From Haloarcula limicola (GTDB taxonomy: Archaea > Halobacteriota > Halobacteria > Halobacteriales > Haloarculaceae), in the NCBI RefSeq assembly GCF_010119205.1, contig NZ_WRXM01000001.1:682001-746000 (forward strand): a stretch of DNA of 64,000 nt, in the 5' to 3' direction. Positions 35,701-51,209 of this stretch are shown here, piece by piece (position 1 is the stretch's first letter; every line of letters starts with the position of its first letter). The position numbers were made by a program, and so were the translations under genes. The notes under the pieces are model-generated. The model was given only the letters and a program-made list of their open reading frames with translations. It had not been told where the DNA came from and did not search any database.

Positions 35701-37533
35701 TCAGTTCTCGCGTCGTGCGGCCAACAGCGCCGCCGCCACGACGGCGAGCAGTGCGGCGACGGCCGTGAAGCCGGGACCGTCACCGGACGTGGGCACGTCG
35801 GTGCCGCTCCCGTCGGACCCGTCGTCCGCGGCGGTCCCGCCGTCGGCAGTGGCCGTCTCGGTGCCGTCCGAGCCGTCCGGCGTCGCGGTGTCGTCCGTCG
35901 TCACCGGATCGTCGGTTGCCTCGGTCGGCGTGTCGTCTAGTTCACAGCCGCAGTCGGTCTCGACCGGCGTGTCCGTGCCGTCGCCCTCGTCGGGCGTCGT
36001 CGTCTCGGTCCCGTCGTCGGGGTTGCCGTGGATGGGACCGCCACCGTCGCCGCTGGAGTCGGATCTGACGGTGACCGTCGTGGACTGCGAACCCACGCTG
36101 ACCGGGACCTCTCCGGTGGTCTCGAACGTGTACTCGAAGCGCACGGTCTCGGTGGCACCGGCGGCCACGTCGACGGGTTCGCTGTCGACGACCGTCCCGT
36201 CGACGGTCAGTTCGGCAGTGTAACTGCCCCTGGCCTGCCCGATGTTCGAGAGTTCGGCCGTCACCGTCGCCGTGTCACCTCTCTCGACGGAGTCGGGCGC
36301 GCTAATACTCGCCACCGAAATCGACGGGTTGGCGTCGACGAACTGCCTGACAGCGCCCGTGTCCGCGCCGACGTACAGCGCGTCGTAGGCGACCGTCGGC
36401 GCGGTGGCGATGGCGGAGGAACTCGCGTAGAAGCTCGCTCGCATCCGTCCGTCGGTCGCGTCGAGTAGATGGACGTCGCCGACGTCGGTACCGACGAAGA
36501 CGGTTCCGTTGGCCGTCGTCACCGACGCACCGAAGGTGTCCTTGGTATCCACCGAGGTACGCCACTGCTGGGTCCCGTCGCCGAGCGCGTGGGCGGCGAC
36601 AGCGTCGGACGTGCCGACGACGGCCGATCCCCTGTGGATGGCCGGACTGGCGAAACTGCCGTCGTAGGCGCTCGTCTCGGCCCACTGCTCGGTCCCGGTC
36701 GCGTCGTAGGCGGCGACCGTGCCGTCGGTCGCGGTGACGACCACCGTCTGGCCGTCCGCAGTCACGGCCGGGGCGTTGAGCGCGCCGCTGGCCACGTCCT
36801 CCGAGAACGTGGCGCTGAGGTCCGCCGTCGAGAGCGCGTGGAGCGTCCCGCTGCGGTCCCCGACGTAGAGCGTCCCGTCGGCGATCGCGGGCGTCATCGC
36901 GCCCGCGGGGCTGCCCATGTCGTAGGCGGCCAGCACCTCCGAGCCGTCGGCGGCCAGCTTGTAGACGTGGCCGTCCTCGCTGGCGACGTAGAGCGCGCCG
37001 GCGTCGTCCGTGGCGACCGAACCGGCGAACGCGCCGAAGGCCGCTTCGTTGCTATCGGTGCTCCGCGTCCACTCGACGGTGCCGCTGGCGGTGTCGAGCG
37101 CGTAGACGGTGCCGGCGTCGGTAGCGACGTAGAGGCTCCCCTCGTCGTGCGTCGGCGAGCCGAACACCGATCCGTCGACGCTCTGGGTCCACGTCTGGGA
37201 CCCGTCGGCCTCGGCGTAGGCCTTCACGGTACTGCCGTCGCCGACGTAGACGGTGTCGTCGCCGACGGTCGGTCCGGAGGCGACGTCCGTCCCCTGGTTG
37301 CCGGCGACGCTCCATCCGAGGTCGATGCTGCCGTAGTCGGGCGCGCCGGTCGCGTTCCCGGAGTTGCGGTCGTCGGCCTGATAGCTCGGCCACTCGCCGA
37401 CGTTGCCGGCGGCGTTGCCGCCGGTGTTGGCCGCGCCGATTCCAATGGGGGCGATCAGGCCCGCGGGGATCGCCGCGACGGCGAGCACCGCGAGCGAGAG
37501 CGCCAGCACTTTCCCTGCCGACGTGTCGTTCAT
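35701..37533 (-). CDS. Secreted PQQ beta-propeller protein with PGF-CTERM tail
   Basis: 610 aa. A signal peptide (residues 8-33) is followed by a PQQ-like beta-propeller with repeats of the kind DGSQTWTQSVDG, GTVEWTRS, TQQWRTSV and TEQWAETS, ending near residue 390. Then a CARDB-like Ig domain (ISVASISAPDSVERGDTATVTAELSN), a Thr/Asp-rich linker with a C-x-C pair, and DGPGFTAVAALLAVVAAALLAARREN, the PGF-CTERM sorting signal processed by archaeosortase. The ATG overlaps the GH97 stop by four bases, so both are made together. Probably a surface scaffold or binding protein. Confidence 0.85.
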   Translation of the reverse strand: MNDTSAGKVLALSLAVLAVAAIPAGLIAPIGIGAANTGGNAAGNVGEWPSYQADDRNSGNATGAPDYGSIDLGWSVAGNQGTDVASGPTVGDDTVYVGDGSTVKAYAEADGSQTWTQSVDGSVFGSPTHDEGSLYVATDAGTVYALDTASGTVEWTRSTDSNEAAFGAFAGSVATDDAGALYVASEDGHVYKLAADGSEVLAAYDMGSPAGAMTPAIADGTLYVGDRSGTLHALSTADLSATFSEDVASGALNAPAVTADGQTVVVTATDGTVAAYDATGTEQWAETSAYDGSFASPAIHRGSAVVGTSDAVAAHALGDGTQQWRTSVDTKDTFGASVTTANGTVFVGTDVGDVHLLDATDGRMRASFYASSSAIATAPTVAYDALYVGADTGAVRQFVDANPSISVASISAPDSVERGDTATVTAELSNIGQARGSYTAELTVDGTVVDSEPVDVAAGATETVRFEYTFETTGEVPVSVGSQSTTVTVRSDSSGDGGGPIHGNPDDGTETTTPDEGDGTDTPVETDCGCELDDTPTEATDDPVTTDDTATPDGSDGTETATADGGTAADDGSDGSGTDVPTSGDGPGFTAVAALLAVVAAALLAARREN

Positions 37534-40500
37534 CGCTCCGTCACCTCCGAGGCGATGCCGCGGAGGTCAGCGTAGTCCGGGACCAGTCCTCCGGTTCCCG
37601 GGACCGCGCTATCGGACTCGTAAGCCTCGCGCACGACGTCGAAGTGCGCGCTCGTGACCGGTCCGTTGCCGGCGAGGGCCTCTCGGAGGGAGTTGCCGGT
37701 CTCGCTCATCGAGACGAACGGGATGTCGTACCCATCGAAGTCGTCGGAGTCCGTGATGTCCTCGGCTGTCGGGTCGAGGACGTCCGCCTGCGAGACGCTA
37801 TCGGGCAGGACGATGTCGAGGACGTTGGTGTGATAGTAGCTCGAGGGTGCACCGCCGAACGTGTAGTTCCCCGAGGCGTTGGCGTCGGATTCGACCTTTC
37901 GGATGCCAGCTGTGCCATAACTATCGTAACTGAACATCATCGGAACGATGTCGACTTCGCGGATGTTCGACGGAATCGTGCTCCGCGGGACCGTGATCTC
38001 GATCGCGTCGAACTGTCCGATACCACGGGTGCTCACGCCGCTACTGGCGTCGGCGATAGTGCTCCAGTTGCCGTCTTCGACGACGGGGAGCGTTCCAGAG
38101 GCCACATTGTTGGAACTGGCGTGTCCCGTGGCGACGATGCGGCGGTGATAGTCCTTGGCGAATATCTTCTCGCCGCTATTGTACGCGTGAACACCATCAC
38201 GGCTGTAGAGGTCTGAGCTACTGGCATTTGGGTCACTGACGTAGAGCTGAACGTGCTGGAGACTGTAGCCGTAGTCGCCGCCCCACGGATCGCGCAGTTG
38301 CGGCAGGCGGACGAGGAACGTGTAGTTCGAGTCGTCTTCGTAGATATCCACCTGCTGGATGTCGTGATCCACCGGCGTGATATCGCTGGTCGAGGGATAG
38401 GTGAACGCGTTCGCTCCGTCCGACGTAGTGGCGGGACCGTAGGGGTCACCACCGTCATCAGAGAGGGTAGCGACGTGGTCTACATCGCCCAATCGATCCT
38501 TGTACAGCGGCGTGAACGGGAGTTGCGCCAGATCGTCCGCGTCGTAGGCGAGCGCCTCGGCCTGGCTCACGCCGGGCGGCGTGAGCATGTCGACGACGCC
38601 CGGCGCGTTCTCCACGGCACCGGCTTTCGCACCGCCGAACTGGTAGCCCTGCGCCGTCTCCCTGACGTCGCGGAAGCCGCCGTAGTCCTCGGAACCGACG
38701 ACCGGACAGACCTCGGTGTTGACGATATCGAGGTCGCTCAGACTGCTCTTATCGACGGAGACGATGACCGTGTTCCCATCTAAGTTGACGAGTTTGTCGA
38801 CGGAGGCGACATCGTCTCCCTGCGCGTCGACGACGCTACCGGCGAACCCGGTCGCGGTAACGCGGTAGTGCCAGCCGGACGCGAAGTTCGCCGAGACGCC
38901 GATATCGCCGTTCTCCGTGACGCTGCCGCCCGGAAGCGACGGGTCGCGGAGCCAGACCGCGAAGAAGTGCGGCGAGAAGTCGCCGCCGAAGGAGTCGTAG
39001 AGGTTGGCGACCTCGAAGGAGAACAGGTAGTCCGAGTCGGACTCGTACACCTTGAACGACCGCAGGTCGAACGCGCCGTCCTCGAAGGCGCTGTTGGTGG
39101 GGTAGGTGTAGCTCCCCGGACCGTCGTCGTCGCCGGACGGATCGGAGAACTCGGCGATGAGTTCGCCGGGCGTCACAGTCACCGTCCCGGAGGCGAGTTC
39201 CGTCCCGGACTGTGGGTCCTTCAGGACGACGCTGTAGGAACCGGGGGTCTGGATGGTGTAGCCGAAATTGAATGTCTCACTCTGCCCCGTCGGGGCGAGG
39301 CGAACGTTCTCGGTTGCCACGACGGTGCCGTCGACTTCGATATCGACAGTCGTGCCGCCGATGAAGTCCGTCGAGTTCGTCCCTGTCGCCGAGATGAACT
39401 GCTGGTCGAGATCGGGGTCAGGAGTGATACTGTACGACGGTGATTGAGTCGGCTTCGCGTACGTATCGAGACTCGAAGCTTCCTCCGACGACGCCGGGAC
39501 GAGCCGGAGCGCCGTTCCGCCGCTTCGGGCCATGGACGCTAGCACGGTATCTCCCGAACTGACGAGCGACGTGGTTCGTGCAATCTCCGTGGGATCGTTG
39601 TCCACGTCAGTTCCCGCCTCGTCTGTGTACATCTCCATCGTCCAGCCGTTGGACTGAGAGTCGAGGAAATCGAGCGGCACGTCGATGGCGCGACCGTTGC
39701 CGTCGGTCATCGCGCCGACGTACCACTCCCCGTCCTTCTGCCGTGCGGTGACGACGTACTTCCCGATCTCGGCGTCGACGACCGTCGTGTCGTCCCAGCC
39801 GCCGGCGGGCACGTCTTCGATGTACTTGAAGTCGGGTTTCGACTCGACGTTCTCGTTCGCGACCTGGCTGTCGGTCAAATCGGTGTATTTCGCCGGGAAC
39901 GGGGCATCAGCACCCTGTTCGGTGACGCCGACGGTGTTGACGGTCAGTCCCGCGACGTCACCCTGGAACGTCTCACCGGAGTCGTCGTAGTTCATCTCCA
40001 GCGCGACGGCGTTGTCGCCCTGCATGAGGTTCACCGAGACAGTATGGACGCCGTAGGTGTCCCAGTACTCCGTGAACGACGGGTTGATCTTCTCCGTCGA
40101 CCCGTTGACGTTCAGCGTGAGTTGCGGACCGCTGGCGTCGATGACTCGCGGGGCGTTCTCCTCGGCGTCGCTCGCATAGCGGATGTGCAGGTCGTAGGTC
40201 CCGGCTGAACTGACGTTTTTGACAGTGAAGGAGACGTTCGACCCGGAGTCGTGTTTGTTCGGGTCGAACCCGACGTAGTTCGTTCCGAAGGTGTTGCGCC
40301 AGTCGTCGCCGGTGGTGAGTCCGTCGATGACTCCGGAGGGGGCTTGGACGTACTGGCCGACCTCGAACGCCTCGTCGATGTAGGCCTCGACGCGGTCGGC
40401 GGCCATCTGTATCCCGGCGTTGTACGTGGGATACATGGCGAGTTGCTTCGCGCGCGTCGTCTGAATCTGGTCGCCCTCGCTGTCGTTGAACGTGATGTCG

Positions 40501-42317
40501 AAGATACCGGGCTGGTAGCTCGTCGGGCCGGCCAGCATCCGCGTGAAGGGGAGCGTGACGTGGTGCTCGCGGCCGACGTTCGAGCCGAGCGCGCCGAACC
40601 CGTCGTACTCCTGGGCCTTCACGACCTCGCGGGCGGCGACGTTGGGATACGTCCGGCGCTCGCCGGTCGGGACGATGCCCTCGTGGATCTCGAGGGTCTG
40701 CCGTTCGCTCGCGGCCTCCTCGATGACGGTTCGGTGGTGATTGACCGCCAACTGGCAGTGCTGGTTGTGACTGGGCGAGCTCTGATTGTCGCCGAACAGA
40801 CCGGGGTCGGAGACGTAGCCGTTCTTGATCGAACGGATGCCGTTTTGCTCGTACTCGTCGAAGATGCCGTTGTTCAGGATCTCGTCCTCGTAGTTCGGGA
40901 GGTTCCCCGACGTCTCGTTGTGGATCGTGAACTCGACGGGGTTCGGGAGGTTCGACCCGTACGTCGTTATCTCGCCGACGTCGAAGTCGGGGTAGGAGTC
41001 GGCGACGCCCATCTCGAGTGCGGACCCGGTCGCGCCGGCGTCCGACCCGTAGGAACTCCACCCCTTGTTCCATCCCTCCGCCAGCACGCTGTCGATCCCG
41101 TTCTGGCTGGCGAAGTGCATGTAGCGTTTCATCCGCTCGGTGCGCGCGCCGTGGATGTACGCCGCCGGGTTGTTCCCGTTGGCCTCGATGTCGGCGTCGC
41201 TCTTGTACTCCCACTTGGCGTTGCCCGCGATCATCGTCCACCAGATGCCGATGTACTTCCGGGGGGTCAGCCAGTCCGTGTCGACGCCGCCGTTGCCGTC
41301 GCTCGGCAGGACGGTGTCGTCGCGGTCCTCGTTCAACAGCGGCAGGAGCGACGATTCGACGAGGTCGCCGGGCGTCGTACCCAATTGGACCGTCCGCCAC
41401 GGCGTCGCATTGGGCAGCGTCCACGAGACTTTCGTCTCGCCCGAGAGCGGCGCGAGCTGCGTCGCGAACTCGGTCCCACCGGAGTCCGATACTGGTGCCA
41501 GTGAGGCCAGCGCGTAGTCGTCTAAGTCCGCCTGATGCACGCTCAGATACGCGCTGTCGCTCGCTTTGACCGTCAGCGGCATGTGCGCGCCCTTCCGGCT
41601 CGGATCGTCGTTCGGTCGAACCGTCTCCGACCCGGCGGGAACTTCGCTGAGTTTCGATTCCGTGTACTCGGATTCGAACCGGGGATTCGTAAAGGCGTTC
41701 TCTATCCACCAGCAGGTGTAGTCGCCGGCGAAGTCGACCTGCGTGTTCTCCGAGATGATGACGGCCTTCCCGCTGTTGGCGGCGAAGTCGCTGTCGTCGA
41801 AGACGAAGCGGAAGCCGAGACCGTCGTCGAAGACGCGGAGTTCGAGATTCGCCGAACGTCCCGGGCCAGCCGTCTCTTCGAGGCCGAGTCGGAGCTCGTT
41901 GTAGTCCTCCGAAACGCTGCTATACTGGTCCCACTCGGGGGTCCAACTTTCGGTCTCCGTCCCACTTTCACTGCCGGTGACCGAGATCGCCGCCCCGCTC
42001 GTGCCGTCGGCGCCCGCGCCGAACGTCGCCTGATTCTGGAAGTCGAAGCCGAGTGACGACGGTTTGATGTACGTCGTACCGTTGAAATCGACGCTGTACG
42101 TGGGTATCCCCCCGGACACGTCCACGCTAACGCTGATGTTTCCGTTCGGTGAGCTAACGGTCCGCGTATCGCTGTCGTCGCCGCCCATTATCTGTGCGGC
42201 GACCGACTCGGGTACGTCCCGCGTGTACGCCGCCGCTGCCAGCAGCGACGCCACCCCGCCGAGGAACTCTCGGCGGCCCACCCCGTTAGGAGTTTGTTGA
42301 GATCGTCTAGTAACCAT
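37530..42317 (-). CDS. Multidomain secreted glycoside hydrolase, family GH97
   Basis: 1,595 aa from the ATG at 42317. Tat signal GRREFLGGVASLLAAAAYTRD; GH97 N-terminal beta-sandwich about 50-310; catalytic barrel about 340-670 with YIGIWWTMIAGNAKWEY and IHEGIVPTGERRTYPN (conserved E in HEGxxPTG-RTYPN); an inserted carbohydrate-binding-like domain about 690-820; the GH97 C-terminal sandwich; a CARDB-like domain about 1000-1090; then two tandem domains of the glucodextranase C-terminal type (each GDF/GDY ... VYESDSDYLFSFEV or IYEDDSNYTFLVRL), and a 53-aa C-terminal module. GH97 has inverting and retaining members; the place of the retaining aspartate reads KNGYV, so inverting is more likely. 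Expected substrate is alpha-glucan or alpha-galactoside. Confidence 0.85.
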   Translation of the reverse strand: MVTRRSQQTPNGVGRREFLGGVASLLAAAAYTRDVPESVAAQIMGGDDSDTRTVSSPNGNISVSVDVSGGIPTYSVDFNGTTYIKPSSLGFDFQNQATFGAGADGTSGAAISVTGSESGTETESWTPEWDQYSSVSEDYNELRLGLEETAGPGRSANLELRVFDDGLGFRFVFDDSDFAANSGKAVIISENTQVDFAGDYTCWWIENAFTNPRFESEYTESKLSEVPAGSETVRPNDDPSRKGAHMPLTVKASDSAYLSVHQADLDDYALASLAPVSDSGGTEFATQLAPLSGETKVSWTLPNATPWRTVQLGTTPGDLVESSLLPLLNEDRDDTVLPSDGNGGVDTDWLTPRKYIGIWWTMIAGNAKWEYKSDADIEANGNNPAAYIHGARTERMKRYMHFASQNGIDSVLAEGWNKGWSSYGSDAGATGSALEMGVADSYPDFDVGEITTYGSNLPNPVEFTIHNETSGNLPNYEDEILNNGIFDEYEQNGIRSIKNGYVSDPGLFGDNQSSPSHNQHCQLAVNHHRTVIEEAASERQTLEIHEGIVPTGERRTYPNVAAREVVKAQEYDGFGALGSNVGREHHVTLPFTRMLAGPTSYQPGIFDITFNDSEGDQIQTTRAKQLAMYPTYNAGIQMAADRVEAYIDEAFEVGQYVQAPSGVIDGLTTGDDWRNTFGTNYVGFDPNKHDSGSNVSFTVKNVSSAGTYDLHIRYASDAEENAPRVIDASGPQLTLNVNGSTEKINPSFTEYWDTYGVHTVSVNLMQGDNAVALEMNYDDSGETFQGDVAGLTVNTVGVTEQGADAPFPAKYTDLTDSQVANENVESKPDFKYIEDVPAGGWDDTTVVDAEIGKYVVTARQKDGEWYVGAMTDGNGRAIDVPLDFLDSQSNGWTMEMYTDEAGTDVDNDPTEIARTTSLVSSGDTVLASMARSGGTALRLVPASSEEASSLDTYAKPTQSPSYSITPDPDLDQQFISATGTNSTDFIGGTTVDIEVDGTVVATENVRLAPTGQSETFNFGYTIQTPGSYSVVLKDPQSGTELASGTVTVTPGELIAEFSDPSGDDDGPGSYTYPTNSAFEDGAFDLRSFKVYESDSDYLFSFEVANLYDSFGGDFSPHFFAVWLRDPSLPGGSVTENGDIGVSANFASGWHYRVTATGFAGSVVDAQGDDVASVDKLVNLDGNTVIVSVDKSSLSDLDIVNTEVCPVVGSEDYGGFRDVRETAQGYQFGGAKAGAVENAPGVVDMLTPPGVSQAEALAYDADDLAQLPFTPLYKDRLGDVDHVATLSDDGGDPYGPATTSDGANAFTYPSTSDITPVDHDIQQVDIYEDDSNYTFLVRLPQLRDPWGGDYGYSLQHVQLYVSDPNASSSDLYSRDGVHAYNSGEKIFAKDYHRRIVATGHASSNNVASGTLPVVEDGNWSTIADASSGVSTRGIGQFDAIEITVPRSTIPSNIREVDIVPMMFSYDSYGTAGIRKVESDANASGNYTFGGAPSSYYHTNVLDIVLPDSVSQADVLDPTAEDITDSDDFDGYDIPFVSMSETGNSLREALAGNGPVTSAHFDVVREAYESDSAVPGTGGLVPDYADLRGIASEVTER
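37533..37691 (-). other. C-terminal module 1 of GH97 (dockerin-like)
   Basis: The last 53 residues start SLREALAGNGPV and contain SAVPGTGG. They align without gaps to the last 53 residues of the polysaccharide deacetylase at 51048-51209 (about 16 identities). Confidence 0.6.
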
Positions 42318-42339
42318 TTCCAACTCAGTAAGAACGGTT

Positions 42340-42352
42340 GTACAACATAAAT
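42340..42352 (-). promoter_or_regulatory. TATA box of the GH97-PQQ operon
   Basis: Minus-strand GGATTTATGTTGT, 23-35 bases upstream of the start at 42317, giving a nearly leaderless transcript. The next 180 bases upstream (to 42535) hold no gene. Confidence 0.5.
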
Positions 42353-42535
42353 CCAACGGTTATGTACGATTATGATATACGTCTGTGTGGGAATAGAACG
42401 TTATCAGAAAAGATACTTCAAAAGTCGCCCACAGGTTGGCTAGAGATTCGAGAGTGATTCTCAGAGGAGCGAGAGATAGGTCTCGTATTTTTCGAACGTT
42501 CGCCGGTGCTGCGCTGTCGTCGGCTATCGACCCGA

Positions 42536-43276
42536 CTAATCGGTCTGGGGGAGGAGCCACGCGCCGACGAGAAAGCCGACGACGGCACAGACCGTGAGGA
42601 CGGCGAGCGGCGTGATGGCACCTCCCTCGCCCGTCGTCGCCGCGCGCACGCCTCGCGAGAAGTACGTCAGCGGCGAGAGCCACGTCGGGAACCACCCCGG
42701 GAGGAGTTCCGGCGGGACGAACGTCTCCGAGAGGAACAACAGGGGAAGCGCGATGGCGTTGCTCGCGGAGATGACGCCGTCCTGTGAGTCGGCCAGACTC
42801 CCGAGCATCGCTCCGACGCCGCAGAACAGCCCCACGCCGAGGACGACGAACGGAATCAGCAACGGCGACAGCTCTATCTGTGCGCCGGTGAGCACGACCA
42901 TCAGCGCCAGCAGGAGTATCCCCGCCAGGCCGATGACGACGACGTTCACGAGCGTCTGGGCGAGCAGCCACTCCGGGCGGGTCAGCGGCGTCGTCGCCAG
43001 TTTCTCGAAGCGGTTGCCCGCTCGGTGACGCGCCACCTCGCTCCCGACCCGAGAGAGCGGCGTGAACAGCACGACGACCGCGAGGTAGCCGGGCACGTAG
43101 TACGCCGGGGACTCGGTGAAGAGGCCGCCCCCGCCCGGCCGCGTCTGGACGAGGACGCCGAAGATGACGACGATGATCAGCGGGAAGAAGAAGGTGAAGA
43201 AGACCGCCGTCCGCCGACGGAGGAACGCCCGCGCCGCGGCCCGCGATTCCGCCCGAAGGCGACCGAGTCGGCTCAC
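42536..43276 (-). CDS. ABC-2 type transporter permease
   Basis: 246 aa from a GTG at 43276 that overlaps the ATPase stop by four bases (GTGA); the longer open frame to 43381 is rejected for this reason. Six helices and the ABC-2 pattern: an amphipathic N-terminal RRRTAVFFTFFFPLI, an extracellular loop, GNRFEKLATTPLTRPEWLL and LPLLFLSETFVPPELLPGWF (ABC-2 signature). It forms an exporter with the ATPase encoded before it. Substrate unknown; drug or glycan are options. Confidence 0.88.
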   Translation of the reverse strand: MSRLGRLRAESRAAARAFLRRRTAVFFTFFFPLIIVVIFGVLVQTRPGGGGLFTESPAYYVPGYLAVVVLFTPLSRVGSEVARHRAGNRFEKLATTPLTRPEWLLAQTLVNVVVIGLAGILLLALMVVLTGAQIELSPLLIPFVVLGVGLFCGVGAMLGSLADSQDGVISASNAIALPLLFLSETFVPPELLPGWFPTWLSPLTYFSRGVRAATTGEGGAITPLAVLTVCAVVGFLVGAWLLPQTD

Positions 43277-44214
43277 CGGACACCACCCGCCGTCGCCTCC
43301 TCGCTCCGCGGATCGCCGCCGCGACCGACGCCGGTTCCCGTCAGTTCGAGGTAGACGTCTTCTAGGTCCGGCTCCTTCCACGTCAGGCTGTCGTAGCCGA
43401 CGCCGGCGGCGTCGAGTTCGGCGACGACCTGCCCGATGGACTCCGGTCGGACGCCGTAGACCACGAGTCGGCCGTTCCGCAGGACGGTCCGCGCCGGATA
43501 GTCGATGCGGTCGGGAGTCGTCTCGTCGAAGTCGCCGTCGACGATGAGTTGGCTATCGCCGCCGTGTTCGGCGACCAGTCGAGTCGGACTGTCCAGCGCG
43601 GCCAGTCGCCCGTCGGCGAGCAACCCGACGCGGTCGGCGAGTTGCTGGGCCTCCTCCATGTAGTGTGTCGTGACGACGATGGTGACGCCGCGGTCGGAAA
43701 GGCCCGACAGCAGGTCCCAGAGGGCCTGTCGGCCGGCCGGGTCGATTCCCGTCGTCGGCTCGTCGAGCACGAGCAGGTCCGGGTCGTTGATGAGCGCCGT
43801 CGCCACGCAGGTCCGCCGCTGCTGTCCGCCCGAGAGGTTCTCGTAGTACGTCTGGGCGCTGTCGGTCAGTCCCACGTCCGACAGCACGGCGTCGACGTCC
43901 CGCGTCTCGTCGTAGAGACCGGCGTAGTACGCGACGAGTTCGCGCGCGCTCAGGCGCTCGTGCGGGTCGAACGACTGCGGGAGGAGACCGATGCGCGAAC
44001 GGTCCACGTCTCTCGGTGACTCCCCGAACAGTTCGACGCGGCCCTCCGCGTCGGTGGTCCCGGTCAGCGCGCGAACCAGCGTCGTCTTCCCCGCCCCGTT
44101 CGGTCCGACCAGCGCCAGCACCTCGCCCGCCGCCGCGGAGAGCGACACGCCGTCGAGCGCGACGGTGTCGCCGTAGCGCCGACGGACGTCCTCGGCGACC
44201 AGTACCTCGTCCAT
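43273..44214 (-). CDS. ABC transporter ATP-binding protein
   Basis: 313 aa. Walker A GPNGAGKTTL near residue 37, signature LSGGQQRRTCVA near 132, Walker B LLVLDEPTTGID near 155 and the H-loop TTHYMEEA. The C-terminal extension (about 80 residues) is that of DrrA/CcmA-type exporter ATPases. Partner permease is encoded directly downstream. Confidence 0.92.
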   Translation of the reverse strand: MDEVLVAEDVRRRYGDTVALDGVSLSAAAGEVLALVGPNGAGKTTLVRALTGTTDAEGRVELFGESPRDVDRSRIGLLPQSFDPHERLSARELVAYYAGLYDETRDVDAVLSDVGLTDSAQTYYENLSGGQQRRTCVATALINDPDLLVLDEPTTGIDPAGRQALWDLLSGLSDRGVTIVVTTHYMEEAQQLADRVGLLADGRLAALDSPTRLVAEHGGDSQLIVDGDFDETTPDRIDYPARTVLRNGRLVVYGVRPESIGQVVAELDAAGVGYDSLTWKEPDLEDVYLELTGTGVGRGGDPRSEEATAGGVR

Positions 44215-44263
44215 AGTTCACCGTCGGTCATCCCCTCCGAAAGCCGTTCCGTTCTGGCGATGA

Positions 44264-44494
44264 CTACAGGTGACTCCTGACCTCGCGGACGATGTCGTCC
44301 ACGTCGAACTCGTCCTCGTCCTTGTCGTACACCGTCCGGCCGTCGACGCGGACGCTGAAGACGCCGTGGTCGCCCATCACCAGGCTCAGTCGGTCGATCT
44401 CCTGTTCGACGCCGTTGAGTATCGCTCGCTCTACGTCGAGGGCGCGCTCGCGGAAGCCACAGGGCACGCAGTACTCGATTTCGATCTCGGTCAT
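44264..44494 (-). CDS. Rdx family (SelT/SelW/SelH-like) protein
   Basis: 76 aa starting MTEIEIEYCVPCGFRERA. A CxxC (CVPC) between the first strand and helix, then GDHGVFSVRVDGRTVYDK, as in the thioredoxin-like Rdx family; the usual Sec is Cys. Probably a small redox protein. Function in archaea is not known. Confidence 0.82.
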   Translation of the reverse strand: MTEIEIEYCVPCGFRERALDVERAILNGVEQEIDRLSLVMGDHGVFSVRVDGRTVYDKDEDEFDVDDIVREVRSHL

Positions 44495-44543
44495 GTGTCG
44501 ACGTACGTACCCGATAGTGACAAAGGCTCGCCTCGACGGACCG

Positions 44544-44807
44544 TCACCGGTACAGCGAGTAGGATATCAGTCCCATGCCGGCGAGGACGAACCCCGTTCG
44601 GAACAGTCCGGTGTGGAGCAGGCTCGGCAGATACGTATTCAACAGAGAACAGTCCATCACGCCGCCGAGGCTGATACAGACGAACCCCGCCGAGATGTAC
44701 AGCATCGTCGCGTTCTGATGCCTGCGATACCCCCGGAACGACTGGGCCGCGATGAGGAAGCCGAGCGCGATGACGAGTAAGTTGGCCGCGACGAGCAACG
44801 CGCTCAT
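44544..44807 (-). CDS. Small membrane protein (DUF7521-like)
   Basis: 87 aa, three helices, with RGYRRHQNATMLYISAGFVCISLGGVMDC. It overlaps the upstream HTH gene by four bases. The pair of an HTH regulator and this protein is frequent in haloarchaea as far as I recall. Role unknown; perhaps a membrane sensor. Confidence 0.65.
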   Translation of the reverse strand: MSALLVAANLLVIALGFLIAAQSFRGYRRHQNATMLYISAGFVCISLGGVMDCSLLNTYLPSLLHTGLFRTGFVLAGMGLISYSLYR

Positions 44808-45160
44808 TCGTCACCCCCGCGGATGTCTTCCCAGACACGCGTGAACCGATCGACCGCGTCAGATTGTTGTGTGATTGTCACGTCTAGCTCACCGTCTCGA
44901 ACGTCGACATCGATGTGTTCGACTGCCGCTTCGTAGGAGGTGTAGTGGTTCCCCGACGGGTCGAGCTCGTTGTTTTCGACCACGAGCCCCGCGTCGACGA
45001 GGTCGTCGACCCGGCGGTACACCGTCGGGAGCGAGAACCCGCACGCCTCCGCCAGCTCCTTCGCCGACATCGCCTCCCGACTCGCCGCCACGAATATCTC
45101 GCGGGCGTACTCGTCGTGGAGTAGCCCGAGCGCGGCGATGCCGTCGGGGTCCTCGCTCAC
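44804..45160 (-). CDS. Winged-helix transcriptional regulator (ArsR/HTH_20 type)
   Basis: 118 aa from a GTG at 45160, chosen because the ORF upstream (to 45262) is charged without domain character. LLHDEYAREIFVAASREAMSAKEL then ACGFSLPTVYRRVDDLVDAGLV form a winged HTH with the recognition helix SLPTVYRRVDDL. The remaining 40 residues are beta-strand and acidic. ATGA overlap to the membrane gene that follows. Confidence 0.82.
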   Translation of the reverse strand: MSEDPDGIAALGLLHDEYAREIFVAASREAMSAKELAEACGFSLPTVYRRVDDLVDAGLVVENNELDPSGNHYTSYEAAVEHIDVDVRDGELDVTITQQSDAVDRFTRVWEDIRGGDE

Positions 45161-45290
45161 GGCCGGGCAATCAGCGCGGGCGTTGAAGTATCTCGCGGAT
45201 ACCTCCCTACCGTGCGACGAGATAGCACGATTTTTCCGAGTCTGAAAACGGCGACGGCTCACTATACGGACGGTCGGCGAAGGCCGCTAC

Positions 45291-46127
45291 GTGACTCGAA
45301 AGACACGTCGGGCGTTGTTGCGGGGCGGCGTAGCGGCGACTATCGCCGGCCTCGCCGGGTGCAGTACCAGTGACTCGCAATCGACGTCGACGCCGCAGTC
45401 GGGCGCGTCCGCCTCGACCGACGCGGAAACGGCGTCGCAGTCGACGGCGACCGCGGAGGCGACTGACCGGCCGACACAGACCGAGGAATCGACGCCGATC
45501 TCCTCGAAGCCCGTCTCGCCGTCGTTACACGCGGCGTCCGGAACCACCGGCTTCGACGTCGACCTCGCCGGCAACCCGATAGTCGGGTCGCCCGACGCGG
45601 CCCTCGACCTCTACTACTGGAGCGATTACCTCTGTCCGTTCTGCAAGAAGTTCGAGGAGCGGACGTTCCCGAAGCTCGTCCGCACCCACGTCGCCGAAGG
45701 ACGGATCCGCGTCGTGCTCCTGCAGTTCCCGAACATCGGCGAGAACTCCATGACCGCGTCGGTCATGAGTCGGTGCGTCTGGCGACAGGTCCGCGAGGAC
45801 TCGCCGGACACCTTCTGGAACTGGCACTCGACGGTGTTCGACGAACAGGGGTTCACGCAGGGCGACTGGTCGAACCGGTCGAACCTGCTGGAGCTGACGG
45901 AGTCCGTCGAGGGCGTCGACGCGTCGGCGGTCGATTCCTGTCTGTCCGAGAACCGAGAGACGCTCGTCTCGGCGGTCGAGGCGGAACGCCAGCGCGGAAA
46001 GCGAGCGGGCCTCGACGGGACTCCCTCGTTCGTCCTCTACGACCCCGACTCCGACACCGCGGCCGACCTGCAGGGCGCACAGCCCTACTCCCGGTTCGAC
46101 AGCAAGATCCGGTCGCTGACGGAGTGA
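45291..46127 (+). CDS. DsbA-like thioredoxin-fold lipoprotein
   Basis: 278 aa from a GTG at 45291. Tat-type signal TRRALLRGGVAATIAGLAGC with lipobox LAGC, then a Ser/Thr linker to residue 85, then a DsbA-type domain: LYYWSDYLCPFCKKFEERTFPKL with CPFC active site, a helical insertion, and the cis-Pro segment GTPSFVLYD. It acts outside the cell membrane as thiol oxidase or reductase. The gene downstream, two bases away, encodes a membrane protein with CxxC, so they may form a redox pair. Confidence 0.88.
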   Translation: MTRKTRRALLRGGVAATIAGLAGCSTSDSQSTSTPQSGASASTDAETASQSTATAEATDRPTQTEESTPISSKPVSPSLHAASGTTGFDVDLAGNPIVGSPDAALDLYYWSDYLCPFCKKFEERTFPKLVRTHVAEGRIRVVLLQFPNIGENSMTASVMSRCVWRQVREDSPDTFWNWHSTVFDEQGFTQGDWSNRSNLLELTESVEGVDASAVDSCLSENRETLVSAVEAERQRGKRAGLDGTPSFVLYDPDSDTAADLQGAQPYSRFDSKIRSLTE

Positions 46128-46129
46128 CG

Positions 46130-46684
46130 ATGACCGAGCATACGGCCGACGGCTGGCGACGGCGGTTCGAACAGTTCGGGAGTAGACTCGGCGCGGCGCT
46201 GACGTATCCGCTCACGTCGTGGCCCCGGATACTCGCGGCCGCCGCTCTCGCCGTCGCCACCTTCGTCCTCCTCATCCTCAGTACGTTCCCGACCTACACG
46301 GTGCAGATGCTCGGGGCCGGCGTCCAGCGGTATCTACTCCGGGCCTTCCTCGATCTGCTCGATACGACGTACCGCTCCATCGGCGTCTTCGGCGTCGGTC
46401 TCATCGCCTGTTACGCCGTCCTCACCGGCGTCGCCGTCGTCAACGTCGCCGCGCAGTTGCGCGTCGTCGGACTGTCCAGCCTCTCGGATCTGACCGGCGT
46501 CCTCCCCGGTCTCGTGGCGTCCGGTTGCGCGAGTTGCGGGGCGGGCGTCCTCGGCTTTCTCGGGTTCACGGGCGCGCTCGCGGTGCTCCCGTTTCACGGT
46601 GGCCTCCTCCGCGTCGGCGGCCTCCTGCTCCTGCTTCTCTTCCTCGGACGGGCCGGCGACCCGCGGCAGTGTCGGCTGACCTGA
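46130..46684 (+). CDS. Membrane protein with CxxC in a transmembrane segment
   Basis: 184 aa from the ATG at 46130, two bases after the lipoprotein. Four to five helices. Helix 3 or 4 contains SGCASCGAGVLGFLGF, a CxxC next to a glycine-rich stretch, and the C-terminus ends with another Cys. Possibly a thiol-relay partner of the DsbA-like lipoprotein (compare DsbB or CcdA roles), but not homologous to either by eye. Confidence 0.65.
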   Translation: MTEHTADGWRRRFEQFGSRLGAALTYPLTSWPRILAAAALAVATFVLLILSTFPTYTVQMLGAGVQRYLLRAFLDLLDTTYRSIGVFGVGLIACYAVLTGVAVVNVAAQLRVVGLSSLSDLTGVLPGLVASGCASCGAGVLGFLGFTGALAVLPFHGGLLRVGGLLLLLLFLGRAGDPRQCRLT

Positions 46685-46714
46685 GACGGGGGGAATCGGC
46701 ATCGTCTCCGGCGC

Positions 46715-47389
46715 TTACCGTCCGATCGGTCGCCAGTACAGCAGCGCGAGCGAGACCAGATACACCACCGTCGCCGCGCCGTAGGACTGGGGGACTAACT
46801 GGCCGACGGCCGCGGCGGTCCCGCCGAGCACGCTCGATATCGTCGGCACCAGAATCCCGAGGACGCAGGAGACACAGGAGAAGAGGCCGGTCAGACTCCC
46901 GAGCGAGAGCCCCGACGTGTCAAGCACCATGACGTAGACGAGATAGGCCAGCGCGCCGTAGCCGACCAGTTTGTACGGGATGAGCGTCACCGACACGACG
47001 TTGCCGAAGTACGCCAGCATCGGGTTCCACCCCGGCGGGAGCTTCAGGAGGTTGAACTGGACGTACGAGACGATGTCCGGCGACCCGGGGCGAACGATCC
47101 CCCCGATGACCGCCAGGACGAGGAAGTAGGCGACGCCGACCGCCAGCGCGCGGCGTCGCTGTTTCGTCGAGGCGGGCGGCGGTGTCGTCTTCAGGACGAC
47201 CAGCAGGCCGGCGTTGATCCAGACCAGCGGGTAGACGTACTGGGCGACCCCGCGCCACGAGGTGGCGCTGGTCCCGCCGAAGAGGACGTGGGCCGCCACC
47301 AGCAGTAACTCCGTATTGAGAAGCAACGCGCCGTACAGCAGCGTCTCGCGGTCGAACGACGGGTCGAAGCGGCGGGTGATCGTACTCAT
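46715..47389 (-). CDS. Conserved membrane protein with CxxC helix (DUF7546-like)
   Basis: 224 aa from the ATG at 47389, overlapping the cyoE stop by four bases. About seven helices. Near residue 170 LFSCVSCVLGILVPTISS places CxxC at the start of a helix, as in the neighbour at 46130. Always next to cyoE in haloarchaea as I recall (DUF7546). Probably in heme-copper oxidase biogenesis; inference. Confidence 0.68.
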   Translation of the reverse strand: MSTITRRFDPSFDRETLLYGALLLNTELLLVAAHVLFGGTSATSWRGVAQYVYPLVWINAGLLVVLKTTPPPASTKQRRRALAVGVAYFLVLAVIGGIVRPGSPDIVSYVQFNLLKLPPGWNPMLAYFGNVVSVTLIPYKLVGYGALAYLVYVMVLDTSGLSLGSLTGLFSCVSCVLGILVPTISSVLGGTAAAVGQLVPQSYGAATVVYLVSLALLYWRPIGR

Positions 47390-48783
47390 AGGACGAGCGC
47401 GTCGGCGACGATGGCCAACAGGAGCAGACCGAGGTACGCGTTCGAGGCGTGGAACGCGCGGAACGCGGCTTCCTCGGTCTGCTCGCGGTGGAGGCGGACG
47501 ACGGCCCAGAGGAACACGCCGCCCAGCGTCGTTGACGTGAGCGCGTACAACCACCCCAGGGACGTGAGCGCGGCCAGTATCCCGGAGGCGACCAGCGTCG
47601 CACCGAGGTAGTAGACGATGTGCTTGCGCGTCTCCGTCTCGCCGCGGACCACGGGCATCATCGGGAAGCCGCCGGCCTCGTAGTCGTCCTTGTACGCGAG
47701 CGCGAGGTTGTAGAAGTGCGCGGGCGTCCAGAGGAAGATGACGCCGGCCAGCGCCAGCCCCGCCAGCCCGATGGTCCCGTCGATCGCCGCCCAGCCGATG
47801 AGCGCCGGGAGCGCCCCCGCCGCACCGCCGATGACGGTGTTCTGGACGGTGTTGGGCTTGAGGACGAGCGTGTAGACGACGCTGTAGAAGAGGATGGCCG
47901 TCAGCCCCAGCGCCGCCGCGAGGACGTTCACCTGCCAGAACAGCGCCATCGCGGCGGCCGCCAGCGCGACGCCGAAGGTCATCGCGTTCCGGACCGGAAT
48001 CTGGTGGGTGGCGATTGGGCGGTCGGAGGTGCGGTCCATCCGCTTGTCGATGTCACGTTCGAGGACGTGGTTGAACGTGCCCGACGCGCCGATGGCGAGG
48101 ACGCCGCCGCCCAGCGTCAGCAGCACCGTCCGAACGGTGAGCGACTGGCCGGCGTTCAGCGCCATCCCGGCGGCGGCGACCAGACACAGGAGCCACATCA
48201 GGCGCGGTTTCATCAGCCGGAAGTAGGCGTAGGCCGTGCCGAGGAGGCGCTCTCGCGTCGAGAGCGCGGCTCGCGGAACCGAACCGTCGTCGCTCTCCTC
48301 GGGCATCGGGGCCGGCGAGAGGTCGTCGACGGGCTCCTCGTCGTCGCTGCCCGTCTCGGCTTCGAGGTGCCACGCCAGCGCGAGGACGAACGCTCCGAAG
48401 ATTGCCATGCCGACGGCCAGGTGCGCACCGGGGAGCCCCCCGGTCGCGCCGGAGGTGGCGACGAACGCGCCCAGTGCGACCTGAATCGGGTACAGGGCGA
48501 TACCGACCAGCAGCGCGGCCTCGACGCGGCGGCGCGTCGCCGCGCGGAGTCCGAGGAAGACGGTGACGAGCGCGAGGACGCCGACGACCGCGGCGGTCAG
48601 GCGGTGGCCGCTGGCGATCAGCAGGGACGGGTTCGAGAGCGTCACCGGCCCCCGACAGAGCGGCCACGTGGTGCAGGCGGTCACCGCGTCGGTGATGGCG
48701 GCCGTCGCGCCGGCGATGACGAGGAGGTAGACGCCGACGGCGGTGGCGGCCAGCGACCCGGTGAACGTACGGCTCTCTGCCAT
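47386..48783 (-). CDS. cyoE: CtaA-like / protoheme IX farnesyltransferase fusion (heme O synthase)
   Basis: 465 aa. Residues 1-145 have four helices with a CtaA (heme A synthase) half pattern: a CTTWPLCRG cysteine pair and SGHRLTAAVVG and GAHLAVGMAIFG histidines. Residues 190-465 are a UbiA-type prenyltransferase with NHVLERDIDKRMDRTSDRP (Asp-rich Mg site) and the second YKDDYEAGGFPMMP. Together it would make heme O and take part in heme A formation. The fusion is known from haloarchaea. coxB follows only after 8.4 kb of other genes. Confidence 0.9.
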   Translation of the reverse strand: MAESRTFTGSLAATAVGVYLLVIAGATAAITDAVTACTTWPLCRGPVTLSNPSLLIASGHRLTAAVVGVLALVTVFLGLRAATRRRVEAALLVGIALYPIQVALGAFVATSGATGGLPGAHLAVGMAIFGAFVLALAWHLEAETGSDDEEPVDDLSPAPMPEESDDGSVPRAALSTRERLLGTAYAYFRLMKPRLMWLLCLVAAAGMALNAGQSLTVRTVLLTLGGGVLAIGASGTFNHVLERDIDKRMDRTSDRPIATHQIPVRNAMTFGVALAAAAMALFWQVNVLAAALGLTAILFYSVVYTLVLKPNTVQNTVIGGAAGALPALIGWAAIDGTIGLAGLALAGVIFLWTPAHFYNLALAYKDDYEAGGFPMMPVVRGETETRKHIVYYLGATLVASGILAALTSLGWLYALTSTTLGGVFLWAVVRLHREQTEEAAFRAFHASNAYLGLLLLAIVADALVL

Positions 48784-48891
48784 TACCGTATCCTTCGACG
48801 GCGCACACTTAGACTCCTCGCTTTTCCCGTCGGGTGAGCCGGGTTCGTGCGACGGTGCCGGGGAGAAAGAACGCCCGCGGGCTTCGACAGC

Positions 48892-49086
48892 TCAGTTGCC
48901 GCCGACCTCGGCCCCGGTCACCCAATCGGAGACGAGCTGCTGGATAGTCGCGTCGTCGATGGTCTGTCCGTCGGTGCCGGGCACCTCGGTATCGGTCTGC
49001 CACCAGTTGATGGCCTGTTGGATCTCGCCGTCCTCGACCCGCGAGTCGTCGCCGTCGCCGTAACTCGCGACGGCCTCGCGCACGGT
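48892..49086 (-). other. C-terminal module 2 (dockerin-like)
   Basis: 64 residues, with a 5-residue insertion (DGDDS) relative to the two other copies, giving a GDGDD run similar to a calcium-binding loop. Confidence 0.6.
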
Positions 49087-49539
49087 CATCGCCTCCGTCG
49101 ACTCCACTGTGACGGTGACGGCGTCGGTGTCGGCGACGTACTCGGAGGTCGACGGGTAGATACCGGACCCCTCGTTCTCGACGGGGTACTCGCCGGCCGA
49201 AGCCGTCGAGGGAACCGTGAGCGTGTACGTCACAGTGTAGTCCCCGGCGGTGAGCCAGAGCCACTCGTTCGTCGAGGACTTGTACGTTCCACCGTCGTCG
49301 TCGGTGGCCTCGACCGCCCAGCCGTCGGGCACGTTGGCGTCGATTAGCGGGCCGTGGACGCCGTCGCCGTCGATGGTGGCTTCGACGGTGATGGTGTCGC
49401 CGGGTTCGACAGTGGTGTCCGAGACGGTCGTCGTCACGCCGACGGCGTCGGCCGGGGCGGCGACGGCGGCCGTCGGCGCGAGGGCTGCCAGTACGAGCAG
49501 GCAGGCGACGGCGACGACGCCGCGAGAGTGACGGCGCAT
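48892..49539 (-). CDS. Short secreted protein ending in the dockerin-like module
   Basis: 215 aa. Signal peptide (residues 8-28), a beta-sandwich domain of about 110 residues (VEPGDTITVEATIDGDGVHGPLIDANVPDGW, TAGDYTVTYTLTVPSTASAGEYPV), then TVREAVASYGDGDDSRVEDG and EVPGTDGQTIDD near the end. This C-terminal module is shared with GH97 and the deacetylase. No catalytic motif. Likely a surface or binding protein. Divergent from the deacetylase. Confidence 0.72.
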   Translation of the reverse strand: MRRHSRGVVAVACLLVLAALAPTAAVAAPADAVGVTTTVSDTTVEPGDTITVEATIDGDGVHGPLIDANVPDGWAVEATDDDGGTYKSSTNEWLWLTAGDYTVTYTLTVPSTASAGEYPVENEGSGIYPSTSEYVADTDAVTVTVESTEAMTVREAVASYGDGDDSRVEDGEIQQAINWWQTDTEVPGTDGQTIDDATIQQLVSDWVTGAEVGGN

Positions 49540-49704
49540 GGTCAGTGGGAATCAGCCGCTCGAAGCGACTGTGAGACGGTGCGGTCGGGCGCGCGAGACT
49601 CCGGATGCATCAGTGTGCTGGCTTCGGTAGTTCCGGCCATTGTTATGGAGCGTTTGACCCCGGTAACACGCCGCCTTCGGTCCGAGCGCTCGGGTGTCAG
49701 GTGA

Positions 49705-49714
49705 TCTATAAACG
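49705..49714 (+). promoter_or_regulatory. TATA box of the deacetylase gene
   Basis: TCTATAAACG, 32-41 bases before the ATG at 49746; a start site at about 49735 would leave roughly 10 bases of leader, which favours the start at 49746 over 49782. Confidence 0.5.
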
Positions 49715-49745
49715 ATTACCGGGTCGAGCAAGCGGCGGCATAACA

Positions 49746-51209
49746 ATGCGGTGGGTGGCGCTATCGAACAGATATTCTGACATGACCAACCGCAATCCGA
49801 TTTCGCGCCACGGGCTGCTCAAACGGGGGGCCGCCGCGCTCACCGCACTGGGGACGACCACCAGCGTCGGGCGGGCACGAGCGGCGACCGAACATCCCTT
49901 GCTCAATACGGCCTTCGACACCACGGACCGCTACGAAGACAGCGGCCGACTGCTCGACGACTTCGAGGACCTGAGCCAGTGGGAAGCGCGGTCTGGGCAT
50001 CTCAATGCCGTGACCGACCAGCCCTACCGCGGCGACCAGTCGGCCGAGCTGCTACTGGGTCCGGACGAAGGTACCGACCTCGAGATCGTCCGCGTGTTCG
50101 ACGATCCGATAGATCTCTCGAACAAGGACCTCTCGATCGCGCTCCGGTTGGAGAGCCCCTCGACCGAGCAACTCGACGTCCACCTCTACAACGGCAGCGA
50201 TTCGGTCACGATGCGTCGGCGGACCATCACGACCTCCTACGGGTGGTTCCGCATCGACCTCGGCGTCACCAGCGAGTACGGCGACCCCGACCTCAGCAGC
50301 GTCGACGCCATCTCTCTGGAGTTCTATCGGGACTTCGAGACGGACCTCCGAGTGTGGGTGGACGACCTTCGGACGACCGAGCGAGCCGATACGGGGCGGG
50401 TCATCGTCACGTTCGACGACGGCGGTATCACCCAGTACACGAACGCGCTGCCCATCATGGAAGACCGGGGTATCCCCGCGCTCACGATGATAAACTCCGG
50501 GCGAGCGAGCGATAGCGACTTCCTGGGCGAGGACGAGATGCGCGAGATGCGCGGCGCCGGCTGGGAGATCGGTAGCCACACAGTCGATCACAGACATCTC
50601 CCTGATCTCTCCGACGCCGACGCTCGCGCGCAGATCGAGGAGAACAAGAAGTGGCTCCTCGAACGCGGGTTCGAGCGCGGCGCGTCGATGTTCTCCTATC
50701 CCTGGAGCGGGAACTCGCCCCGAATCCGTGACATCGTCAGCGACTACCACTACTTCGCGGTGACGGACGGTAGCTTGCCCCACGGGCAGCAGCTCACCGG
50801 CCCGCTGACCGTCGGCCGGGTGTTCGGCGAGGAACTGGAGCGGGTCTACGACGTGCTCGACATGGCCGAGAAGTACAACCAGACGGCCGTGCTGGCCTAC
50901 CATCAGGTCGGCGCGAACGGCTGGATCTCCGAGGACGACTTCCGGGCGACGATGGACCGGATCGCGAGCGGCAGCATCGAGGCGATTCGGCCCTCGAAGC
51001 AGTTGACCGAACTCCAGTCGCCGCCGGTCGAGGAGATCGTCCCGCTCTCCATCCGCGAGGCGGTGGCCGGCGACGGGGTCTTCGAGGGTAGCGAGGCCCA
51101 GCGAGCGGTCCACTGGTACCGGGAGGACGAGTACGTCCCGCGGACGAACGGGAAGAAGATCGACGAGGCGACGATGAACGAGCTGGCCGCGGCGTGGTCG
51201 AACGACTGA
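49746..51209 (+). CDS. Secreted polysaccharide deacetylase with dockerin-like tail
   Basis: 487 aa from ATG 49746 (alternative 49782). Signal ISRHGLLKRGAAALTALG resembles a Tat signal, but the second arginine is histidine. A jelly-roll domain (about 65-205; LDDFEDLSQWEARSG, DAISLEFYRDFETDLRVWVDDL) precedes a NodB-type domain: RVIVTFDDGGI (motif 1, DD), IGSHTVDHRHLPDL (motif 2, H...H) and MFSYPWSGNS (motif 3). It should remove acetyl groups from surface polysaccharide in a metal-dependent reaction. The last 53 residues are the shared module. First gene of a surface-glycan cluster. Confidence 0.87.
   Translation: MRWVALSNRYSDMTNRNPISRHGLLKRGAAALTALGTTTSVGRARAATEHPLLNTAFDTTDRYEDSGRLLDDFEDLSQWEARSGHLNAVTDQPYRGDQSAELLLGPDEGTDLEIVRVFDDPIDLSNKDLSIALRLESPSTEQLDVHLYNGSDSVTMRRRTITTSYGWFRIDLGVTSEYGDPDLSSVDAISLEFYRDFETDLRVWVDDLRTTERADTGRVIVTFDDGGITQYTNALPIMEDRGIPALTMINSGRASDSDFLGEDEMREMRGAGWEIGSHTVDHRHLPDLSDADARAQIEENKKWLLERGFERGASMFSYPWSGNSPRIRDIVSDYHYFAVTDGSLPHGQQLTGPLTVGRVFGEELERVYDVLDMAEKYNQTAVLAYHQVGANGWISEDDFRATMDRIASGSIEAIRPSKQLTELQSPPVEEIVPLSIREAVAGDGVFEGSEAQRAVHWYREDEYVPRTNGKKIDEATMNELAAAWSND
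51048..51209 (+). other. C-terminal module 3 of the deacetylase (dockerin-like)
   Basis: Starts SIREAVAGDGVF, contains EYVPRTNGKKIDEATM. Ungapped alignment to the GH97 tail. Confidence 0.6.

Follow-up and report, generated by a model that had tools for sequence, protein, structure and literature searches.

The window, i.e. the whole 64,000-nucleotide stretch of Haloarcula limicola DNA analysed here, contains the genes of three secreted proteins whose C-terminal tails had been described as following one pattern. A GH97 glycoside hydrolase is encoded on the reverse strand (37530-42356); according to Pfam it consists of the GH97 N-terminal, catalytic and C-terminal domains and two Glucodextran_C modules, and it starts with a Tat signal. 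The second protein is short (48892-49539, reverse strand) and is composed of a Sec signal peptide, a NEW3-like beta domain (a weak Pfam match to NPCBM_assoc/NEW3, E = 0.0027) and the tail. The third is a polysaccharide deacetylase (49605-51209, forward strand; PF01522, E = 3.8e-20) with a probable start at 49779 and a Tat-like signal (MTNRNPISRHGLLKRG). The gene directly downstream of that for GH97 (35701-37533, reverse strand) encodes a secreted protein that is beta-propeller-like and ends in a PGF-CTERM-like anchor.

All three tails were found in frame, and their scores against a profile of 32 members agree with a common pattern: 102.5 bits for the short secreted protein (48904-49089, reverse strand; AMTVREAVASYGDGDDSRVEDGEIQQAINWWQTDTEVPGTDGQTIDDATIQQLVSDWVTG), 63.8 bits for the deacetylase (51045-51206, forward strand) and 11.5 bits for the degenerate GH97 tail (37533-37694, reverse strand). 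The profile was seeded from the tail of the short protein and its copy in the same genome, and the deacetylase tail was then recovered at 63 bits; iteration from a single sequence had drifted to M20 peptidases and ubiquitin-like proteins (L005, L029-L035), which were removed before the profile was rebuilt. The module common to the short protein and the deacetylase is approx. 56 residues long and is 43% identical between them (E = 1e-14). For the GH97 and deacetylase tails the preliminary description had counted about 16 identities over 53 residues; the actual values are 16 over 54, without a gap (BLASTP E = 1.2e-6), a number matched by one of 20,000 shuffles at any offset. The 11.5 bits of the GH97 tail exceed the best of 5000 shuffles (7.6 bits), and no higher score was obtained when about 630 other C-termini were scored with the module profile. 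Since a closely similar tail (TIREAVAGDGPVTERHFETVQAAYENGEAVDGTGG, 12.3 bits) is kept in a 64% identical GH97 ortholog from another haloarchaeal family, the GH97 tail is a maintained relative of the module and, judged by its sequence, a degenerate but real copy.

A scaffold-like secreted protein (54900-56693, reverse strand) is encoded 3.7 kb away from these modules. It has a signal peptide, a cohesin domain, Asp/Gly collagen-like repeats and a conserved C-terminal domain; no dockerin and no obvious membrane anchor were seen in it. The repeats form a (GDD)n tract (55464-55751, reverse strand; PF01391, E = 8.5e-14). The N-terminal domain (56145-56546, reverse strand) was modelled by AF2 with a pLDDT of 97.6, and in a Foldseek search of the PDB the top 44 matches of the model were all cohesins (best E = 3e-10, TM 0.73), the Archaeoglobus fulgidus cohesin (2xdh) being at rank 12. 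The domain has no direct Pfam match, as it lies below Pfam detection, and its family aligned by hhalign with the PF00963-positive haloarchaeal domains (E = 6e-8, probability 95%). Thus the domain is a cohesin by its predicted fold and by profile. It resembles the PF00963 cohesins, 2xdh included, in fold (TM 0.71-0.79 to the best of them) and differs from them in being invisible to Pfam and in that its host proteins in haloarchaea are Asp/Gly collagen-like or membrane-anchored. The family is present in 125 of 292 haloarchaeal genomes. In Haloarcula amylovorans there is an ortholog of the protein, and cohesin, deacetylase and short protein follow each other in the same order as in the window. 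No canonical dockerin was found at the window locus next to the cohesin and the modules. The genes between the scaffold-like protein and the deacetylase resemble glycosyltransferases and a flippase by sequence, which would be consistent with a system shaping surface glycans.

Distribution, hosts and architecture of the module

The search of haloarchaeal proteomes proposed in the preliminary description was carried out with the profile, and the module was detected in 31 of 292 Halobacteria genomes. Its hosts there are deacetylases, a trypsin-like protease, a phosphoesterase with CBM96, lectin/NPCBM proteins and PKD proteins, and the named records include H. amylovorans (module 90% identical), Halorubrum, Halobellus, Halogranum and Halorussus. 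The H. limicola genome itself carries further copies in a deacetylase paralog on another contig (C2) and inside a 2557-residue malectin/PKD protein. Similar conserved giants of about 2300 residues hold the module internally, with 500 to 2400 residues C-terminal of it. The module had been said to stand always at the C-terminus of exported proteins; its internal position in the 2557-residue protein and in about 20 relatives contradicts the first half of this statement. The second half is largely correct, since a Sec or Tat signal is present in almost every carrier; the exception is a family of about 335 residues that has the module at its C-terminus and lacks a signal peptide (L057, L058, L060, L061, L147, L149; in L057 and L060 it directly follows a PKD protein of about 940 residues). 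The host range, often polysaccharide-related, the signals and the internal copies indicate a module that is transferable, mostly exported and not always terminal. Library searches of the members found no Pfam or NCBIfam model covering it, and on these searches the module is a new family, absent from both libraries.

None of 29 other haloarchaeal deacetylase homologs examined has the tail, and no deacetylase with a swapped tail was seen among the loci read in a Halobacteria-wide look. In two genomes of the genus (L145, L150) module-bearing deacetylase paralogs show conserved synteny, both being neighbours of an amino-acid permease that contains Usp domains. Distant C-terminal copies, which we labelled by guess methanogen-type, are present on PQQ, NosD-like, PKD and papain-like proteins of a different family within the phylum; in three genomes (G377, G401, G405) stretches of approx. 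20-30 kb hold 4 to 7 of them. The secreted proteins of these clusters (L230-L235) end in DWNPWNDPDSDGG..ITT.ELQEAIHCWLND.PAPVTG..ITT.RLQ.LIH.WL; no Pfam model covers this divergent module, and no cohesin was detected nearby. An internal module was also found in a protein of an Acetothermia MAG (L141:4833-6107), with a full EF-type first loop (DADGDRRISDGE); either a transfer or an old bacterial branch is a candidate explanation.

For the module of the short protein AF2 predicted, with high confidence, a domain of three helices (pLDDT 92.4; residues 5-11, 22-34 and 48-60), in which helices two and three, each with the preceding loop, are two copies of one repeat. The two-half layout reported earlier was thereby borne out: among 26 divergent modules the identity between the halves was 0.36 within a module and 0.20 for mismatched pairs (z = 8.8), and the halves match in the correct register only. 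The halves are not recent copies, as one core position invariably holds A or G in the first half and I, L or V in the second. At positions 2, 6, 10, 13 and 14, along one side of the helix, the match is 0.55-0.71 within and 0.10-0.48 between modules. Such mirrored variation at selected positions, together with an older asymmetry elsewhere, is the pattern of a two-fold recognition surface; it would fit a two-fold docking surface, and mutual packing across the axis could contribute. In the deacetylase tails and in the family of about 335 residues the symmetry of the halves is absent.

Comparison with dockerins

The tail had been called dockerin-like. What stands of this is the layout in two halves and the use as a transferable secreted tail; membership in Dockerin type I was not supported by the direct comparisons. 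With E values up to 5 allowed, none of the 32 members gave a match to PF00404. The profile-profile comparison with the canonical dockerins of the adaptor proteins described below reached E = 0.1 in hhalign, a value as high as in 4 of 60 permuted controls and not significant. The best Foldseek match of the module model was a type II dockerin module at a non-significant E = 3. Weak sequence matches in the PDB were mostly to EF-hand proteins in the right register (best E = 0.057), and one relative, L103, matched EF-hand_1 at E = 7e-4, below the cut-off; the intermediate family around L103 has too few members in the sample for a bridge profile. In the first loop position 5 is acidic or polar in 30 of 32 members and position 12 is D or E in all 32, positions 1 and 3 rarely being ligands. 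The complete set of calcium ligands (1, 3, 5, 12) is present in one of 32 first loops and in none of the second loops, in agreement with the earlier statement that the ligands are mostly degenerate; a full first loop is present in G050 and, by eye, in the divergent relatives L102 and the Acetothermia protein (L141). PF12512 (DUF3717) matched 14 of the 32 members, in the member shown along a stretch of only about 16 residues, and was rejected as the identity of the module, being read as a chance helix motif.

Since the first half is EF-hand-like and the second half has no calcium ligands, the module falls outside the strict definition of a dockerin, even though it possesses a tandem loop-helix duplication with mirrored residues. 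It shares with type I dockerins (PF00404) a length of about 60 residues, a mostly C-terminal position on secreted enzymes that act on glycans, a pair of similar halves that each close with a helix, and the presence of cohesins in the same genomes. It differs from them in that there is no profile match, in that only its first half is EF-hand-like and usually incomplete, and in having a second loop VPxTxG without ligands, almost no linker between the halves and an extra N-terminal helix. The best reading of these sequence comparisons is that the module would work like a dockerin and is not to be classed as Dockerin_1.

Cohesins accompanying the module

In 21 of 22 assessable loci (one more lies at a contig edge and was left out) the gene after that of a module-bearing giant encodes an adaptor, in which one or two cohesins are combined with a canonical dockerin at the C-terminus; the exception is Halobonum. 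The cohesins after the giants are relatives of that of the 54900-56693 protein. Usually the adaptor is followed in turn by a third protein, which has one or two cohesins and most often a C-terminal membrane helix. The H. limicola genome has such a set of three genes (L047:6637-17611; C1:1504.6-1515.6 kb), encoding the giant of 2557 residues with malectin/PKD domains and the internal module, an adaptor of 670 residues with NEW3, PKD, CARDB, cohesin and canonical dockerin domains, and a protein of 324 residues with a cohesin and a C-terminal membrane helix. By eye, the adaptor starts with a domain resembling the NEW3-like domain of the short secreted protein.

In Halogranum rubrum and one further genome (G081) the giant is split at the module into two adjacent genes. 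The product of the first matches residues approx. 70 to 1500 of the giant and ends in a canonical dockerin, and that of the second has a signal peptide, a cohesin and the module, followed by a match to residues 1575-2553. From this domain layout, what is a peptide bond in the undivided giant appears to have given way, exactly at the position of the module, to a cohesin-dockerin joint. A related exchange was seen in the GH97 protein of genome G165, which carries a canonical dockerin at the site of the module-like tail of the window GH97.

Over the genomes, the cohesin family was present in 23 of 25 genomes with the module and in 102 of 267 others (p = 1e-7). When counted by genus, which removes shared ancestry only partly, the values were 15 of 15 and 28 of 62 (p = 4e-5). 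No recognisable cohesin was found in two module genomes, G228 with three to four modules and G139 with one. In the tree of the cohesins, which is unresolved, module-binding and dockerin-binding types did not separate.

A proposed docking role and its alternatives

Anchoring or assembly, as put forward in the preliminary description, is in our view the best explanation of the shared tail. The shared helical tails and a cohesin-fold protein 3.7 kb away suggest that haloarchaea probably plug enzymes into surface scaffolds, as cellulosome bacteria do. We infer, with a probability of roughly 0.55, that the tail is a dockerin-like docking module that plugs secreted proteins into cohesin scaffolds; this would involve binding between module and cohesin and a choice of which cohesin takes which module. 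Going by its modelled fold, the partner of the window modules could well be the N-terminal cohesin of the 54900-56693 protein. The three-helix, pseudo-two-fold module would then dock non-covalently and interchangeably, bringing secreted enzymes and glycan-active proteins to cohesin scaffolds at the cell surface. The plugs of H. limicola would be the short secreted protein, two deacetylases, the malectin/PKD giant and, in degenerate form, the GH97 enzyme; the sockets would be the 54900-56693 cohesin near the window modules and the adaptor and the membrane-anchored protein near the giant. The canonical dockerin of the adaptor may enter the cohesin of the anchor, giving a two-step chain to the membrane, and the Asp/Gly collagen-like tract may act as a salt-tolerant spacer.

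The cohesin fold modelled for the 54900-56693 protein and backed by the profile comparison, the regular position of a related cohesin after the giants, the co-occurrence by genome and by genus, the dockerin that replaces the tail in the G165 GH97, the concerted halves and the EF-hand-like first half were all counted for this docking role. The window cohesin, with no canonical dockerin in its vicinity, was counted for the module as its partner. The split giant bears on both sides: a dockerin and a cohesin-module pair that apparently rejoin the protein favour docking as such, and the same arrangement implies that the local cohesin partner is the canonical dockerin and not the module, which was counted against. 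Also counted against were the cohesin-free genomes and methanogen-type clusters, the lack of a significant dockerin match in Foldseek and hhalign, and the unresolved cohesin tree.

These points lend some weight to an alternative that we regard as unlikely though serious, namely that the module docks to another receptor (the S-layer glycoprotein, a surface polysaccharide or another protein), while the cohesins of the operons serve the adaptor dockerin only. The pairing in the split giants, the module genomes and methanogen-type clusters without a cohesin and a range of the module wider than that observed for the 54900 cohesin family all speak for it. It leaves the strong co-occurrence and the gene order unaccounted for, however, as well as a window cohesin with no local dockerin to serve and the exchange in the G165 GH97. 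Far less probable is a C-terminal sorting or maturation tag recognised once during export, comparable with T9SS tails or PGF-CTERM. Most copies of the module do stand at the very C-terminus of proteins exported by Sec or Tat, but in the giants it is internal with hundreds of residues beyond it, it is a folded domain with a conserved core and a mirrored surface rather than a short signal, and neither a membrane helix nor a basic tail accompanies it. About as little credit can be given to a module without a partner that would cap beta-sandwich proteins structurally or stabilise them by binding calcium. Its frequent neighbourhood to PKD, CARDB or NEW3 domains and the EF-hand-like first loop would suit such a role; the calcium ligands, however, are mostly lost, and a cap would have no need for polar surface positions that vary in concert in the two halves.

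Under the docking reading, a more specific proposal, which we hold tentatively and at somewhat under even odds, is that the module is an undescribed archaeal docking family in which the calcium sites are largely lost and the co-varying halves constitute a symmetric specificity code, in use alongside canonical dockerins. If so, haloarchaea would possess two orthogonal types of plug for one kind of socket and multi-enzyme surface complexes for glycan processing. The docking system as such, if the reading is right, would provide salt-tolerant, possibly calcium-independent parts for protein assembly. With the split giant and the mirrored halves at hand, the choice of partner is directly testable.

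Cohesins and dockerins have been known in archaea since A. fulgidus, and to our knowledge archaeal scaffold systems have seldom been recognised. Described here are a plug family outside the libraries searched, a cohesin family invisible to Pfam and a conserved gene order of plug, adaptor and anchor. This order resembles that of the adaptor and anchoring scaffoldins of cellulosomes (ScaA/ScaB type), with a plug-bearing protein, an adaptor with cohesin and dockerin, and a cohesin with an anchor; it differs in having one or two cohesins per scaffold, an archaeal C-terminal membrane helix in place of SLH or sortase anchoring, and malectin/PKD giants in place of cellulases. Type I dockerins have been reported on natronoarchaeal glycosidases and were read as substrate-binding (PMC10963439), the searched text mentioning no cohesin partner. 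They resemble our module in being haloarchaeal and in standing on polysaccharide enzymes, and unlike it they are canonical. Extracellular cohesin-dockerin networks have been described in ANME archaea of the same phylum (PMC9012536); those proteins were found by existing domain models, which miss the module. In the open literature searched, haloarchaea, cohesin and dockerin came together only in an unrelated biotechnology review.

Other cohesin proteins were seen in passing. In a Halorubrum protein (L062:1372-4149) two cohesins and long GDD repeats are accompanied by a helical repeat that is duplicated at the C-terminus (DEIAQAKYDIDFADLS...), possibly another surface-attachment unit. In two genomes of one genus (G043, C1:470-487 kb; G208, C1:78-110 kb) at least 13-14 Pfam cohesins are clustered within approx. 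20-30 kb each, and these clusters are candidates for large scaffold systems.
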